This document shows, one piece after another, positions 35,255 to 39,327 of a stretch of 39,830 bases of DNA. The translations under genes were made by a program, and so were the position numbers. This stretch comes from a virus. The notes beneath the pieces are model-generated. The model saw nothing but the letters and a program-made list of their open reading frames with translations, was not told the origin of the DNA and ran no database searches. Every line of letters begins with the position of its first letter. Within the stretch, counting starts at the first letter, position 1. The DNA is taken from the IMG/VR virus record IMGVR_UViG_3300027985_000463, positions 1-39,830 of that record; one strand, given 5' to 3'.

Positions 35255-35446
35255 ATGAGAACTATTATGTTTTTAATCGGAGAGCTTTATGATAATAAGC
35301 TTGTAAAAGAATTGAAAGAATTAAGAAATCAATACTTTATTAGACCTGGTTACACTAGAATGCAAAGATTAGAAAGTGCATTAATAGTAGATACTATTGA
35401 TGATAGATTGAAAGATCTTGGAGTTTATTTTAATATATCGAATTAA
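35255..35446 (+). CDS. hypothetical small protein, first gene of the array
   Basis: This 63-residue protein is not recognised. It has a helical start (LIGELYDNKLVKELKELRNQ) and an internal aromatic PGYTRMQRLESALI segment. It is the first gene behind the promoter at 35188. Its stop codon TAA lies inside the left arm of the first attC-like site (35441-35535), as is common for integron cassettes. Confidence 0.65.
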   Translation: MRTIMFLIGELYDNKLVKELKELRNQYFIRPGYTRMQRLESALIVDTIDDRLKDLGVYFNISN

Positions 35447-35535
35447 CGTTGGCGTATGGTTTCGTAAGCCATGCACCAACTTTCAAAATTTAGTACAAAC
35501 CTTACTTGGCTTATGAACTATACGCATTGTTAGCT
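35441..35535 (+). repeat. attC-like site A
   Basis: The left arm (35444-35470) and right arm (35508-35534) pair along about 25 bases with few mismatches, around a 37-base centre containing ATGCACC. The outer boxes are AATTAAC (35441-35447) and GTTAGCT (35529-35535). The form matches integron recombination sites: two imperfect palindromic arms, AAC at one end and GTT at the other. Confidence 0.65.
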
Positions 35536-35566
35536 TTTCGGCGGTCAAATAGCAAAAAAAATAAAT

Positions 35567-36220
35567 ATGAAAGAATTAAACGATTTTTTATTAAACCTAT
35601 ACACAAGCTCTGATGAAAACAGACCTTCAATGTGTTTTCCAAATGCTGAAAATGGTAATGTATATGCAACCGATGCACATGCTTTAATTGTAGTGCCTGA
35701 AAGTGAATTGTGCTTAAAATACAGCACAAACGAAAAATACCCAAATGCACAAAAATTAATTGACGAAATTGAAGCTAAAGAACTTAATAGTATTAATGCT
35801 AAAGTTTCAGAAGTCGCCAAAGAATTAACTAAGGCACGAATTGAAGTAGATAAAGATTCTATTAAATGTAAGGAGTGTAAAGGAAGCGGAACTGTTGATT
35901 TTAAGTATGAAGATAAAACAGGCGAAACGCATAGTATTGATGGTGATTGCCCTATTTGTGATGGCGAGGGTGCTGATGAAAAAGACTCCAAATTTGCCCG
36001 AATAAAATTATCAATGATTGAAAAAGAAGATGGTAATTATACAGCTATTCAAATTGGTGACTTATATTTTCATCCATTCCAGTTGTATAGGATATTCATG
36101 GTCGCATCATTAAACCATGAAGAATTTATCAATATTAATTATGATGCTGAAAATTATGGTAGTTGTATTTCTTATATCGGAAAAATCAAAGTACTAACGA
36201 TGTTGTATGCACGTCCGTAG
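35567..36220 (+). CDS. cassette protein with DnaJ-like zinc motif
   Basis: This 217-residue protein is not assigned to a family. At 101-108 it has CKECKGSG and at 128-135 CPICDGEG, two C-x-x-C-x-G-x-G elements as in DnaJ zinc fingers, so it probably binds one zinc ion. The N-terminal region holds NVYATDAHALIVVP, which faintly resembles sliding-clamp segments; this is not enough for assignment. It is the first full cassette gene, located between right box A and left box B. Confidence 0.65.
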   Translation: MKELNDFLLNLYTSSDENRPSMCFPNAENGNVYATDAHALIVVPESELCLKYSTNEKYPNAQKLIDEIEAKELNSINAKVSEVAKELTKARIEVDKDSIKCKECKGSGTVDFKYEDKTGETHSIDGDCPICDGEGADEKDSKFARIKLSMIEKEDGNYTAIQIGDLYFHPFQLYRIFMVASLNHEEFININYDAENYGSCISYIGKIKVLTMLYARP

Positions 36221-36225
36221 CTGAA

Positions 36226-36883
36226 CGCTAACGATTAGTATTATGGTGTGTAGCGTGAATTACGCACTGCCGCTGAATTGAAAAACGAACGTAAAAATTA
36301 AATTTATGGGAGGGCAAAAAATAAACAGTGAATTAATTGAGAAGTTCTGTTCTGAATTTAAAGGTAGATACTTGACTTTAAGAGCTTTTAAAAACCTAGA
36401 CAAAAGGGAGCGACAATTTCATTTATTTGGACATTGGAACGTGCTGCATAGCGATGATAATAACATTTACCATAGTTACTTAAATGGAGCTACAGGAGAT
36501 ATTGAAAAATGTTTTTGTGAAATGCCTTTAAGTGACCTTGATAAAATAGTGTATATAAAACATGATGACACTTTTATACTATTTAAACGCTCTAAAGGAA
36601 TGCTGAAACCTGAATTTGTATATACCCAACTAGACACACTTACCAGAATAGATAATAAGCGTATATGGTTGCATGAAAATGGGATACAGATAAGAAGAAA
36701 GTATTTTGTATTTAACCAGAATATGTTGATTGAATGGAAAATGCAGGATGCTTTTACTGGTGAAGAACTTGACCCAAATGCTTTTGAAAAAAGCAAAGCG
36801 CGAGGGCAAATTTAATTTTTGGAATTATGCACAGACTTACATTAATTGCACGAACAAGCTATACACTATATTATGTGTTAGCT
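36226..36883 (+). repeat. attC-like site B, with a gene in its loop
   Basis: The left arm 36227-36255 and right arm 36858-36882 are complementary over about 20 of 25 bases (GCTA-x-ACAC-x-ATA core). The boxes are CGCTAAC (36226-36232) and GTTAGCT (36877-36883). The gene 36306-36815 lies between the arms. The left box complements the front of its cassette (GTTAGC at 35529) over six bases. Confidence 0.6.
36306..36815 (+). CDS. hypothetical protein inside attC-like site B
   Basis: This 169-residue protein is not recognised. It is mixed helical and strand, with FHLFGHWNVLHSDDNN and KHDDTFILFKRSKG segments and no membrane helix. Its last codons contain GCGAGGGCAAATT (36800-36812), also found exactly at the end of gene 37063. 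It is enclosed by the two arms of the attC-like hairpin B, so it is not at the usual place for a cassette gene. Confidence 0.65.
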   Translation: MGGQKINSELIEKFCSEFKGRYLTLRAFKNLDKRERQFHLFGHWNVLHSDDNNIYHSYLNGATGDIEKCFCEMPLSDLDKIVYIKHDDTFILFKRSKGMLKPEFVYTQLDTLTRIDNKRIWLHENGIQIRRKYFVFNQNMLIEWKMQDAFTGEELDPNAFEKSKARGQI

Positions 36884-36898
36884 TGTCGTTTTAATGCA

Positions 36899-37026
36899 AG
36901 CTAACGTTGAATATATGGTTAGTGGCGATTTAAAGCACTGACCAACCGAATAAACACAGAAGTAAATTAAAAAAATAACAGTTAATAACCGCACAAAACC
37001 GCCATTAACTATACATATTGTTATGG
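36899..37026 (+). repeat. attC-like site C (gene-less cassette)
   Basis: The left arm 36900-36927 and right arm 37000-37026 pair over about 20 bases (CGCCA-x-TAAC-x-ATA core). The boxes are AGCTAAC (36899-36905) and GTTATGG (37020-37026). CAAGCTAAC (36897-36905) perfectly complements the cassette front GTTAGCTTG (36877-36885). Only a short CGTTTTAATG spacer lies between them; no gene is present in this unit, whose interior of 72 bases is AT-rich. Confidence 0.7.
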
Positions 37027-37062
37027 TTAGTTTTAGTGCGGTGGGATAAATGCTGATTAGAA

Positions 37063-37305
37063 ATGAAAACTTATTATTTTGAATGTACAGTTAGCTTTAC
37101 CGACTTTGTGCCAGAAGAGGATACTTATTACGGTGAAGAATGTTATAGTGGAATAGTTGAAGCAAAGAACCGAAAGCAAGGTAAAGCGGATGCAGAGAGG
37201 AAAGGGCTTGAAATGTTTGAGGCTGACTTGGGTAAATACAATGATGATGTTAAGGTTAAGATTGATACCTTTTATGAAACCTGTGAGGGTGCGAGGGCAA
37301 ATTAA
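37063..37305 (+). CDS. hypothetical cassette protein
   Basis: This 80-residue acidic protein is not recognised. It begins with a beta hairpin (KTYYFECTVSFTDFVPEED) and continues with a helix (NRKQGKADAERKGLEMFEADL), like small alpha-beta folds. It starts 37 bases after right box C and its stop codon (TAA) overlaps the AAC box of site D. The GTGCGGTGGGAT before its start is also found at 37528 inside the next gene. Confidence 0.65.
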   Translation: MKTYYFECTVSFTDFVPEEDTYYGEECYSGIVEAKNRKQGKADAERKGLEMFEADLGKYNDDVKVKIDTFYETCEGARAN

Positions 37306-37864
37306 CCATAACGGACGAGTACATGGGTAGTGTGCTTTTCCGATAACCTACTGAGCTACCCACGAAGAACAAGTAAAATTAATTTTTGAGCGATGGAAAA
37401 TAGATTAAAATTTAGAGTATTGGATTGCCAACGTGGAGCGTGGGCGAGAGAATCAGAAGCAATTGAGAGCATGGGTTTTGAATTTGGAGTAAAAGACTAC
37501 TTTAATAATATTGCAGGTGAACGTGCGGTGCGGTGGGATTTTATGCAATATACGGGCTTTAAGGACAATAAAGGCAACCCGATATACGAGGGGGATATTC
37601 TTAGCGACTGGACAGAAACAGACGAGGGGATGAAGCAAAGCAGCCTACAAGTTTACTGGTGTGAGAGCGTTGGAGGGTGGAAGCTTGACCATAGTTTTAA
37701 CCAAGATAAAAGTAGCGGTGATTTGCTTAGTGAAGAATTGGCTGATTTTGCCTATGAAATTACTGGAAACGTGTGGGAGGGAAAGAAAAATTAATTTTAC
37801 TCTTCCAATTTTGCACTGCCTTAAATTCGGAGAGCAAGCATATTACCTATGTACTGTGTTGTGC
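37306..37864 (+). repeat. attC-like site D, with a gene in its loop
   Basis: The left arm 37306-37335 and right arm 37838-37864 share a nearly exact complementary core (TACC-x-ATGTACT). The boxes are CCATAAC (37306-37312) and GTTGTGC (37858-37864), which are not complementary to each other. AACCATAAC (37304-37312) perfectly complements the cassette front GTTATGGTT (37020-37028). The gene 37393-37794 lies between the arms. Confidence 0.7.
37393..37794 (+). CDS. YopX-like protein inside attC-like site D
   Basis: This 133-residue protein has the YopX family plan: N-terminal basic strand (RLKFRVLDCQRGAW), QYTGFKDNKGNPIYEGDIL (about residues 52-70), a central strand with EVYW-like LQVYWCESVGGWKLD, and YEITGNVWEG near the end. 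YopX proteins are phage-encoded and of unknown function. It lies within the loop of attC-like site D, so a typical phage gene is part of the array. Confidence 0.85.
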   Translation: MENRLKFRVLDCQRGAWARESEAIESMGFEFGVKDYFNNIAGERAVRWDFMQYTGFKDNKGNPIYEGDILSDWTETDEGMKQSSLQVYWCESVGGWKLDHSFNQDKSSGDLLSEELADFAYEITGNVWEGKKN

Positions 37865-37888
37865 TTAACGAAGTGGCGTTTTAATGAA

Positions 37889-38016
37889 GCACAACGTGTT
37901 GCATAAGACCAGTAAAGGAATGCGAGAGATGAATTATCAAGATACACAATACTTTGAACGGGCTACGATGCTGAAATTACCACTACAACCTTTATTGGTT
38001 TTATGCGGTGTTAGCC
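37889..38016 (+). repeat. attC-like site E (gene-less cassette)
   Basis: The left arm 37889-37918 and right arm 37989-38016 are complementary over about 22 bases (CCTTTA-x-TGGT-x-TTATGC core). The boxes are GCACAAC (37889-37895) and GTTAGCC (38010-38016). AAGCACAAC (37887-37895) perfectly complements the cassette front GTTGTGCTT (37858-37866). A GGCGTTTTAATG spacer like that of site C precedes it. Confidence 0.7.
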
Positions 38017-38050
38017 GTTCGGTTTTTATTAATCTAAATATCAAATTATT

Positions 38051-38482
38051 ATGAAAGACGGATACCCAGAAGAAAAAGAACTCAAGAAAATAAAAGAGTG
38101 GGAAATATATGATTTTATAAACCTTATAGACTATATAAGAGATTTATGGAATTATAACAGATACATTAAATGCTTTTGGCATAATAACAATAAACTTGGC
38201 TACACAATGCGATTAGAGCTTGTAACTTGCGGATGGTCTGGAAATGAAAGTATTATTGAGGCATTACTCGGAAATAATATGTTTAGAATGCTTTGGTATG
38301 CAGAATGGTACAGAGGTGGAAAGCACGTATTTGAGATTAACCCTGTAAATGTTGGCTTTAAACTTGTTTCAGATTATTGTAGGGAAAATAAGATTTCCAG
38401 ACAGGCAGTTTATAAATCAAAACATAAATACATTTTCATCAAGGCAAGTGAAAAGATTGTGTTTGTTAGGCCTTTAAACTGA
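38051..38482 (+). CDS. hypothetical cassette protein
   Basis: This 143-residue protein is not assigned. It has an N-terminal helix rich in Trp/Tyr (EWEIYDFINLIDYIRDLWNYN), the central segment LELVTCGWSGNESIIEALLGNNMFR, and GGKHVFEINP. The GWSGNE motif recurs in small uncharacterised phage proteins as far as I recall. It begins 34 bases after right box E. Its stop TGA is followed immediately by left box F. Confidence 0.65.
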   Translation: MKDGYPEEKELKKIKEWEIYDFINLIDYIRDLWNYNRYIKCFWHNNNKLGYTMRLELVTCGWSGNESIIEALLGNNMFRMLWYAEWYRGGKHVFEINPVNVGFKLVSDYCRENKISRQAVYKSKHKYIFIKASEKIVFVRPLN

Positions 38483-38483
38483 C

Positions 38484-38578
38484 GGCTAACGGGCTTGGTG
38501 TATGAAACGTGGCGGAGTAGAACGCCAGAATAATGCACCGAACTTTCAACCGCCATGTTTTATGACACCGTGTTACCA
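38484..38578 (+). repeat. attC-like site F
   Basis: The left arm 38484-38515 and right arm 38550-38577 form a strong hairpin (CCGCCA-x-GTTT-x-AT core). The boxes are GGCTAAC (38484-38490) and GTTACCA (38572-38578). ACGGCTAAC (38482-38490) perfectly complements the cassette front GTTAGCCGT (38010-38018). The interior of about 34 bases contains AATGCACCGAACTTTC. Confidence 0.7.
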
Positions 38579-38639
38579 ACTGGCGGTTATTGCGAACCTC
38601 GATTAAATGAACGGAAGTAATAATTAAATATTTTATACA

Positions 38640-38987
38640 ATGAAAAACTTAACATTACAAGATTTAGCAGTAGACCACGATTACTACTGCTCTGATAGCA
38701 ACTATTACAGCAATGAGGCTTCTTTAAAGTACGACACTTTTGCTGATTTTTACGAAGAGTTCCACGATGCAGATGTAGATATGAATTTGGTGTTTAGATG
38801 GGATTTAAAAGAACGAGAAGAAAGCAAAAGACACTACTTAGAAATATTCCAAATGAAACAACGAAAAGGTGTATTTACACCAATATACATTGCTTATTTT
38901 GATGAAAAGGACATCCCTTTATTTTTGGAATATTTAAAGCCTCACATTGAAAAATTAAAGAGCATTTGGCAGCCACTTGAATTTTAA
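38640..38987 (+). CDS. hypothetical acidic cassette protein
   Basis: This 115-residue protein is not recognised. It is acidic and aromatic (DHDYYCSDSNYYSNE near the start; DVDMNLVFRWDLKEREES in the middle), and ends in a helix (FLEYLKPHIEKLKSIW). It follows site F by 62 bases. The region after it, to 39049, contains GTTACCA again (38998-39004) and the left box of site G. Confidence 0.65.
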   Translation: MKNLTLQDLAVDHDYYCSDSNYYSNEASLKYDTFADFYEEFHDADVDMNLVFRWDLKEREESKRHYLEIFQMKQRKGVFTPIYIAYFDEKDIPLFLEYLKPHIEKLKSIWQPLEF

Positions 38988-39040
38988 TTATGGGCAAGTT
39001 ACCACATAAGCCGATTAAATGCACTGCCTTTCTTCCGCTT

Positions 39041-39099
39041 GTTGGTAACTACGTAATATGTGTACTTTGATAGACTAAACACTTAAATACTAAGAACTT
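39041..39099 (+). repeat. left half of attC-like site G
   Basis: GTTGGTAAC (39041-39049) perfectly complements the cassette front GTTACCAAC (38572-38580). It is followed by TACGTAATATGTGTAC, which has the form of a left arm. The matching right arm was not found before the window end; it may lie beyond the genes that follow. Confidence 0.45.
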
Positions 39100-39327
39100 A
39101 TGAATTCACTTGATACCCAAAATAACCGGAAAATCTTTGAAAAAGTTAAATGGCTGTGTGGTGATAGTTATATAACTATTGATAATAAGGTGTTTAGTCT
39201 ATCATTTAAAGAGAAAAAAGAGGTTTTGAAAGGCGGTTCTTATTGTTTCTATATCTGCGGAGACTACAGAACTAAGAAGTGGATAAGGGAGAATTGTATT
39301 AACATTGATGGGATTAAAGATTTTTAG
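39100..39327 (+). CDS. hypothetical small protein
   Basis: This 75-residue protein is not recognised. It is basic, with KVKWLCGDSYITIDNKVFSLSFKEKKEVL and three cysteines near CFYICGD. It may lie in the loop of attC-like site G, as genes 36306 and 37393 do in sites B and D, but this depends on a right arm outside the window. Confidence 0.6.
   Translation: MNSLDTQNNRKIFEKVKWLCGDSYITIDNKVFSLSFKEKKEVLKGGSYCFYICGDYRTKKWIRENCINIDGIKDF

Follow-up and report, generated by a model that had tools for sequence, protein, structure and literature searches.

Toward its right end, the viral DNA analysed here (IMG/VR record IMGVR_UViG_3300027985_000463; 39,830 nucleotides, hereafter the window) carries a row of small genes with hairpins between them. 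A preliminary description had taken this row for an integron-like cassette array without an integrase in a phage. The question is whether the hairpins are recombination sites of mobile gene cassettes and, if so, which recombinase would act on them. Our answer, held with high confidence, is that the region 35445-39049 is an integron-type cassette array of a recombinase lacking the IntI domain, carried by a Bacteroidota phage; recombination in this phage itself is inferred.

Organization of the array in the window

The array lies on the + strand and consists of six hairpin sites (S1 to S6) and six cassettes. The mobile unit is a hairpin site together with the body to its right, cut at the AAC box, and parsing the array in this manner gives one gene per cassette. 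The left boundary is formed by S1 (35445-35531), an AAC...GTT hairpin whose AAC overlaps the TAA stop codon of the gene at 35255-35446. Cassette 1 (35448-36232) comprises S1 and gene A (35567-36220, 217 aa, with a weak DnaJ-type zinc-finger match, phrog_20807). In cassette 2 (36233-36905), the whole of gene B (36306-36815, 169 aa, no family) is enclosed in the long loop of S2 (36230-36879), and the body that follows, GTTAGCTTGTCGTTTTAATGCAAGCTAAC, is only 29 bp long. Cassette 3 (36906-37312) comprises S3 (36903-37022, loop of 75 nt) and gene C (37063-37305, 80 aa). Cassette 4 (37313-37895) is the second case of a gene lying wholly within a site loop: gene D (37393-37794, YopX family, PF09643) is enclosed by S4 (37310-37860), followed by a similarly short body of 38 bp. 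Cassette 5 (37896-38490) contains S5 (37893-38012, loop of 75 nt) and gene E (38051-38482, 143 aa). From our reading of the sequence, a leader ORF (37929-38054) runs in frame through the right arm of S5 and its GTT (...LLVLCGVSRS...), and overlaps the start of gene E in ATGA. Cassette 6 (38491-39049) consists of S6 (38488-38574, loop of 39 nt) and gene F (38640-38987, 115 aa, phrog_7880), homologues of which in other phages were found mostly outside arrays.

The right end of the array (39047-39090, + strand) has an AAC that is not followed by a site with two wobble pairs. By analogy, this is where an attI would be expected, and it is regarded as a candidate position only, undemonstrated in the window. 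The record is linear, and its contig stops 0.8 kb beyond the array, on the side where the phage Freya has its integrase. As for the CALIN criterion (at least two attC sites and no integrase), the window has six sites and no recombinase was found in its 39.8 kb by a search for PF00589. Hence the words "without an integrase" hold for the record, but absence from the phage as a whole cannot be asserted. An Rfam scan of the window gave no match, and none of four loci from relatives of the window's endolysin contained a convincing array.

Another way of dividing the array, body plus following site, was considered and rejected. It gives 2, 0, 2 and 0 genes per cassette, cuts 175 phage ORFs, and disagrees with the boundaries observed in the phages Danklef and Freya.

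Anatomy of the sites

In all six stems of the window, including the long-range stems S2 and S4 with a whole gene in each loop, the arms differ at two fixed positions five bases apart, where a G on the left is opposite a T on the right. S1 has an additional bulged T, and the scanned arms of S4 and of S6 contain one more wobble pair each. The search pattern having first imposed the G.T positions, we measured them again on sites detected without that condition; they were present in 302 and 251 of 318 sites, respectively, and shuffled controls gave 0 matches. The base after GTT was A or G (0.60/0.37) and the next was G or T (0.54/0.39), that is, GTTRK as compared with GTTRRRY in the classical R' box, the GTT itself being fixed by the detector. 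The detected cores are ungapped with two fixed G.T pairs (A.C on the other strand), although the detector demands ungapped cores and S1 is bulged. In classical attC stems, unpaired extrahelical bases give the polarity.

Complementarity of cassette ends

According to the preliminary description, the start of each unit is complementary to the end of the same unit, and the two boxes of one hairpin mostly are not complementary to each other. Both statements were borne out. When the start was compared with the reverse-complemented end, 10 bases matched in the unit 37020-37312 and 9 in each of 36877-36905, 37858-37895, 38010-38490 and 38572-39049; in the first unit (35529-36232, the end boxes of cassette 1), the match spans only 6 bases. 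The two boxes within one site agreed at only 2-4 of 6 positions. The preliminary description would have been refuted if shuffled sequence had done equally well. The array region had five GTT...AAC 9-mer pairs against a shuffle mean of 0.30, and none of 2000 shuffles reached five; the remaining approximately 36 kb outside the array had four such pairs. Furthermore, the true start-end pairing was the best of 720 possible pairings (35/36 positions, mean 17.5). With the bulge of S1 and the six-base match beside it, the left edge of the array may be decaying.

The same rule was observed elsewhere. Adjacent bodies obeyed it at 6/6 positions in 72 of 169 cases in viral contigs and in 166 of 214 cases in bacterial genomes (179 at no fewer than 5/6), compared with 1.1% for random pairing. 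Some adjacent viral pairs, mostly widely spaced ones, break the rule; sites may have been missed or lost between them.

Bacterial arrays and the recombinase beside them

Sites of this type are common in Bacteroidota, being present in most of the flavobacteria tested (37 of 41 genomes sampled from one family) and in many of their viruses. They were concentrated at loci of a tyrosine recombinase (54 sites in 339 kb), as against XerCD loci (2 in 198 kb) and random loci (5 in 200 kb). At all 14 site-bearing recombinase loci the sites were located downstream of the recombinase stop codon, and 53 of the 54 had the same orientation. An attI was observed after the recombinase stop at eight loci, where the first cassette start, 28-115 nt away, exactly complements its own end. 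The bacterial loci are complete integrons with a tyrosine recombinase, attI and cassettes.

The associated recombinases, bacterial and phage alike, are related to IntI and lack the IntI-specific domain (~45 aa). An IntI above the TIGR02249 cut-off was found in only 1 of 42 site-bearing genomes. XerC/D proteins of the same flavobacteria formed a separate, fully supported clade and were not beside arrays. Recombinases of the right clade were common among site-bearing flavobacteria and were detected in 9 of 50 viral records, in one of them only as a weak partial match. TIGR02249 alone was discarded as a means of identifying the recombinase; matches below the cut-off occurred in all genomes and controls, and it was adjacency to sites that discriminated.

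Cassette differences between Polaribacter phages

Exact cassette differences were observed in sister phages. The Danklef strains differ by one 781-bp cassette, from TAAC to TAAC, even though the Danklef integrase is annotated only as a 44-aa piece. At one extreme of the Freya strains the attI is empty, and at the other there are 5 kb of cassettes; seven pairwise comparisons gave only clean AAC-bounded insertions, six of which were at the constant ACCCCTATAACAACAATAAG adjoining the 271-aa integrase and one internal. In both phages, single exact units differ between non-identical sites. The Freya integrase forms a long branch in the tree. Seven sites of the present type were also found in Polaribacter phage P12002L. 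It thus appears that phages swap genes by means of their own integrons; the evidence is entirely comparative, without experiment, and drawn from relatives of the window's phage.

An identical gene order and spacing in all related phages would likewise have spoken against the preliminary description; the Freya and Danklef strains differ, and no refutation came from them, the comparison covering these relatives and no strains of the window's own phage. The proposal that a cassette is excised as a circle joining its front and end gains support from the end-box rule in bacteria, from the attI and recombinase adjoining arrays, and from the exact cassette differences in sister phages.

The authors who described Freya took its integrase to indicate temperate potential (PMC8776804); the present data offer an alternative reading. 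In the Freya and Danklef strains, nature seems to have documented how cassettes are gained and lost, and since both phages are cultured on named hosts, integron function in a virus is directly testable.

Phage cassettes differ from bacterial cassettes

The polarity of genes relative to the site was opposite in the two groups, 48 to 6 in viral contigs and 5 to 159 in bacterial genomes. At 158 of 355 phage sites, compared with 12 of 392 bacterial ones, a gene starts within the loop and crosses the GTT. Of the site edges crossed by phage ORFs, 175 were on the GTT side and 19 on the AAC side, as is expected if the cut falls at AAC. Phage cassettes are a distinct form with reversed gene polarity, a gene start often in the loop, and an end at the next AAC. 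G064 and G079 are the identical phage sequence and were counted once. A terminase scored over the cut-off in only 11 of the 50 surveyed viral records, and the viral status of the others rests on IMG/VR.

We consider it rather probable that a separate integron lineage, marked by integrases without the IntI domain and by sites with two G.T pairs, is widespread in Bacteroidota and has a mirror-image branch in phages, which would have its own integrase and attI, genes on the opposite strand, and protein-coding sites that contribute the start codon and, in a preferred frame, an N-terminal leader. By this route, phages could exchange counter-defence genes and perhaps fit different protein bodies to a shared leader. 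The existence of two cassette pools with one type of site raises the question of how they are kept apart, given site-borne start codons and opposite polarity in phages.

Proposed mechanism

The site is presumed to fold in single-stranded form, the most stable fold being that of the strand carrying both G.T pairs (the + strand here). An IntI-related tyrosine recombinase without the IntI domain would then cut the AAC box (opposite strand: G|TT); both the catalysis and the exact crossover base are inferred. The excised cassette would be a circle, in which its two end boxes pair, and would be inserted next to the integrase gene, at attI, or else at a different site. The enzyme may be supplied either by the phage itself, as in Freya, from a gene past the end of the contig, or by the flavobacterial host. 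That the array is active in the window's own phage is an inference, as is the benefit expected from swapping anti-restriction and other accessory genes.

Alternative explanations

Could the phage simply have captured a CALIN fragment of its host, with classical attC sites served by a classical IntI? Integron components and CALINs in phages have been published, and one attC of P12002L (attC2) reportedly recombined with IntI1 (PMC9892861); the present sites are also abundant in flavobacterial genomes. Such a capture is nevertheless improbable. It fits neither the opposite gene polarity nor the loop-borne gene starts crossing GTT described above, nor the scarcity of IntI above the cut-off, nor associated recombinases devoid of the IntI-specific segment. 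It is still less probable that the hairpins act only at the RNA level, as terminators or translation-start structures, with gene content varying by homologous recombination. The phage stems fold on the gene-sense strand with G.U pairs and often have start codons in the loop, and for this reason an RNA role in addition to recombination is plausible. However, an RNA element leaves unexplained that a box is complementary to the other end of its own unit and not to the adjacent box, and it does not account for Freya and Danklef differing by single exact units between non-identical sites, or for the opposite gene sense and the attI beside a recombinase in bacterial arrays. Transposon-like gene carriers with terminal inverted repeats, or hairpins of the MITE or REP/IS200 type, would also have units bounded by short inverted repeats; here, however, the repeats vary between units and match only within a unit, the stem of every site is long and imperfect and has G.T pairs at fixed positions, and insertions occur at one fixed attI adjoining a tyrosine recombinase, without target duplication beyond the shared AAC. 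We regard this explanation as hardly credible.

That the array was built by site-specific recombination and no integrase now acts in this phage lineage is unlikely and cannot be dismissed. The window has no recombinase, S1 is bulged with a six-base match, a site at the far right is absent or degenerate, and Danklef is annotated with only an integrase fragment, though one cassette still separates its strains. Against such a fossil state, the end boxes of five of the six cassettes retain 9-10 complementary bases without drift, and enzymes of the appropriate clade are frequent among site-bearing flavobacteria and occur in some viral records. We retain the integron-type array as the preferred reading.

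Comparison with known systems

The preliminary description considered an integron array in a phage to be new, which cannot be maintained. Qi et al. (2023; PMC9892861) reported attC clusters in phages using IntegronFinder and HattCI models, including P12002L with methyltransferase cassettes, and complete integrons only in temperate phages; in the parts consulted, it does not describe reversed polarity, site-borne gene starts, cassette exchange at the level of strains, or integrases of the present clade in phages. Most of what is known of integrons comes from IntI and its attC models. Such a survey of the same phylum with IntegronFinder 2.0 (PMC9024848) reported almost none in Bacteroidetes proper, only In0 (from an earlier study) and one complete integron of Salinibacter ruber, as against the 37 of 41 genomes here, and the present flavobacterial arrays are unmentioned. 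We found no described flavobacterial integron of this kind in the open-access literature, subscription papers and preprints being outside our scope. The integrase and site class and the reversed, gene-containing phage cassettes appear to be new.

Xer and archaeal XerA (4a8e, 5hxy; NF040815) are the closest solved structures and give profile scores similar to the present recombinases; they differ in that flavobacterial XerC/D form their own clade away from arrays. Cassettes whose start pairs with their own end, a feature of integrons, are found in the window, viral contigs and bacterial genomes. An attI by the integrase that receives cassettes is present in bacterial loci and Freya, the window having only the candidate position, and movement of whole cassettes is met comparatively in the Danklef and Freya strains. 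In Freya, attI and a phage integrase come next on the right of the array; in the window, the sequence stops too soon on that side to show such an order. The IntI-specific additional domain is a classical criterion of integrons (PMC9668308), and it is not met by the site-associated bacterial and phage recombinases. Taken together, the present systems have in common with classical integrons a tyrosine recombinase, attI, one-gene cassettes, GTT/AAC boxes, own-end complementarity and insertion on the integrase side. The integron of Treponema denticola, with a classical IntI and attC, resembles the present bacterial ones in that integrase and cassettes point the same way. From classical integrons the present systems differ in the missing IntI domain, in the two fixed G.T pairs of the sites, in the shared orientation of integrase and bacterial array, and in the phage cassette gene located on the other strand relative to the site.

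Pairing of the boxes and stems in the array

In the array at 35445-39049, each site (S1 to S6) is a hairpin running from AAC to GTT. The preliminary description had stated that the start of each body, the stretch between adjacent sites, is complementary to its own end, and this pattern was present: five units (36877/36897, 37020/37304, 37858/37887, 38010/38482, and 38572/39041) matched over 9-10 bases and one (35529/36227) over 6 bases. Five such pairs were obtained in 0 of 2000 shuffles of the region, and the true start-end pairing scored top among all 720 pairings. The two boxes within one site agreed at only 2-4 of 6 positions. The left and right hairpin arms paired over approximately 13-19 bases, and every stem was mismatched at the same two positions, five bases apart, where a left G lies opposite a right T (G.T pairs). 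S2 and S4, whose boxes seemed to be orphans, had the same stem type with a complete gene inside the loop. When cassettes were cut at AAC (site plus the body to its right), each contained one gene: A, B (in the loop), C, D (in the loop), E, and F. A stem scan across the full 39.8-kb window matched the array sites and none outside.

Gene F (38640-38987, phrog_7880) shared 50-57% identity with a protein from KVP40-like Vibrio phages; its identity with genes of other viral contigs lacking these sites was 69-77%. Immediately to the right of the array, a 22-nt inverted repeat (39068-39089 and 39183-39204, 86%) spans the start of a gene at 39100-39327.

Occurrence of the sites in other viruses and bacteria

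Using a search pattern with only a few stem bases fixed, we obtained at least 120 matches in viral contigs and at least 118 in bacterial genomes; the bacterial matches listed belonged mostly to Bacteroidota, Flavobacteriaceae included, and a few to metagenome bins under other labels. Four unconstrained inner positions were fully complementary in 92 of the 131 viral matches listed (chance, 1 in 256), and a search without any requirement at the two special positions showed G.T there in 302 and 251 of 318 further sites. The spacing varied little: AAC and the first G were mostly 11-12 nt apart, and the last T mostly preceded GTT by 9 nt. Of 41 sampled genomes from the family to which Psychroserpens luteolus belongs, 37 had sites according to a covariance model, with a maximum of at least 80 per genome. 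Between neighboring sites, the body start was complementary to its own end at 6/6 positions for 72 of 169 viral bodies and 166 of 214 bacterial ones (random pairing, approximately 1%); within a single site, the two boxes did not reach 6/6 in any case of this wider set. This rule is the trace expected of a circular intermediate in which the site is fully paired.

Loop lengths of all sites fell into classes near 41, 77, and 142 nt. Four other viral contigs (L055, L095, L040, and L046) likewise had sites whose loop enclosed an entire gene; in L055, a tiny body behind such a site resembled that of the window.

Gain and loss of cassettes in Polaribacter phages

Identical gene order and spacing in all related phages would have refuted the preliminary description; sister strains of the isolated Polaribacter phages Freya and Danklef (not the window's own phage) differed by AAC-bounded units. 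Among Danklef_1-5, strains 1 and 5 had a methylase unit, exactly 781 bp long, that strains 2-4 lacked. It ran from TAAC to TAAC with a site at its start, and its body start and end matched at 11 of 12 positions. Freya_1-10 belong to one host strain, and Freya_1 and six others were examined. The interval separating a conserved gene from a 271-aa 'integrase' was empty in Freya_1 (...TGTTTACAAC|ACCCCTATAACAACAATAAG...) and contained 842 to approximately 4,940 bp of cassettes in the six others. In each of seven pairwise comparisons, the sole difference was one insertion with AAC on both borders; six were located at the integrase-proximal attI, the insertion point beside the integrase (842, 902, 472, and 307 bp and two larger blocks), and one, a 902-bp unit, was internal. 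The Freya integrase, on a long branch, clustered (97/90) with viral recombinases encoded in other viral records that carry such sites.

Danklef phages retain a 44-aa annotated integrase piece (42351-42482 in L360, a Danklef phage) where Freya phages have 271 aa. The paper on these phages interpreted integrases as an indication of temperate potential, without using the word integron (PMC8776804).

Bacterial recombinase and attI

Besides XerC/D, the site-bearing genomes encoded a further tyrosine recombinase, mostly of 370-400 aa. The bacterial enzyme scored 200-224 bits on the integron-integrase model TIGR02249 (cut-off 265) and lacked model positions ~183-238; in an alignment, the IntI-specific segment (~45 aa) was absent from the new recombinases. 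XerC/D formed a separate, fully supported clade; the branching of IntI versus the new enzymes was unstable between the two trees built.

Among the recombinase loci L270-L289, most bacterial enzymes had an N-terminal extension of approximately 80-90 aa that was absent from the phage versions; that of the L281 enzyme (578 aa) was longer than the others. A Calditrichaeota bin (L250; G042:C93) with the new-type site pattern also encoded a true IntI (463 bits on TIGR02249).

We found 54 sites in 14 of 20 recombinase loci, versus 2 in ten XerC/D loci and 5 in ten random loci; in the remaining six recombinase loci the contig ended at most 0.6 kb from the recombinase stop. All sites lay downstream of this stop, all except one shared orientation, and the bacterial cassette genes were co-directional with the recombinase gene. 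The stop was directly followed by a short stretch, often TATATAAC(Y)A, and then GTT. In eight loci this GTT, 28-115 nt past the stop, opened a cassette whose first nine bases exactly complemented its own end. The stretch and the following cassette are an attI with its first cassette.

Polarity of phage and bacterial cassettes

Viral bodies mostly had the main ORF on the site's own strand (48 of 54), and bacterial bodies mostly on the opposite strand (159 of 164). The G.T strand folds more stably than its complement in 771 of 792 sites; it is the bottom strand for bacterial genes and the top strand for phage genes. Not all 'viral' contigs are proven viral (terminase over the cut-off in 11 of 50); checked terminase-bearing records with rule-obeying bodies, the window excluded, showed the same viral polarity by 11 to 2.

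ORFs starting within the loop were frequent at short and medium viral sites (158 of 355) and rare at bacterial ones (12 of 392). These viral ORFs mostly started 45-80 nt after AAC, read through the right arm and GTT, and stopped near the next AAC, often as TAAC; GTT was an in-frame codon in 123 of the 158, exceeding the expectation from frames open in the arms alone. They shared a leader, roughly (K/P)(Q/A)L(N/H)I.DVS.S, ahead of unrelated proteins, including many N6/N4 and C5 DNA methylases, a Mom-family protein, and an RNA ligase. Of the site borders crossed by phage ORFs, 175 were on the GTT side and 19 on the AAC side; hence, cutting at GTT would disrupt many genes, and cutting at AAC few.

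Interpretation of the array

Given the shared sites, polarity, gene-in-loop cassettes, and end-box rule, the best reading is that the mechanism inferred for its relatives also applies to the window array; activity in the window's phage is inferred by analogy, as are the acting enzyme, single-strand folding, and the exact crossover base. No integrase was found in the window; this linear record reaches 0.8 kb beyond the array at the end where, in Freya, attI and the integrase are located.

Comparison with known integrons

The preliminary description had considered an array of this kind in a phage, downstream of lysis genes, to be new. Integron components as such are already known from phages: a 2023 report described CALINs and complete integrons in phages as well as IntI1 activity on attC sites of phages, including one site of a Polaribacter phage (PMC9892861). 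The IntegronFinder 2.0 paper mentions almost no Bacteroidetes integrons (PMC9024848). The open-access literature searched yielded no earlier account of the present integrase/site class in Flavobacteriaceae, of phage cassettes that are reversed and contain genes, or of cassette exchange between phage strains. The system functions like an integron. Judged by the IntI-specific domain, the published criterion, its enzymes do not qualify as IntI; we therefore place it outside the classical integron family, as a variant.
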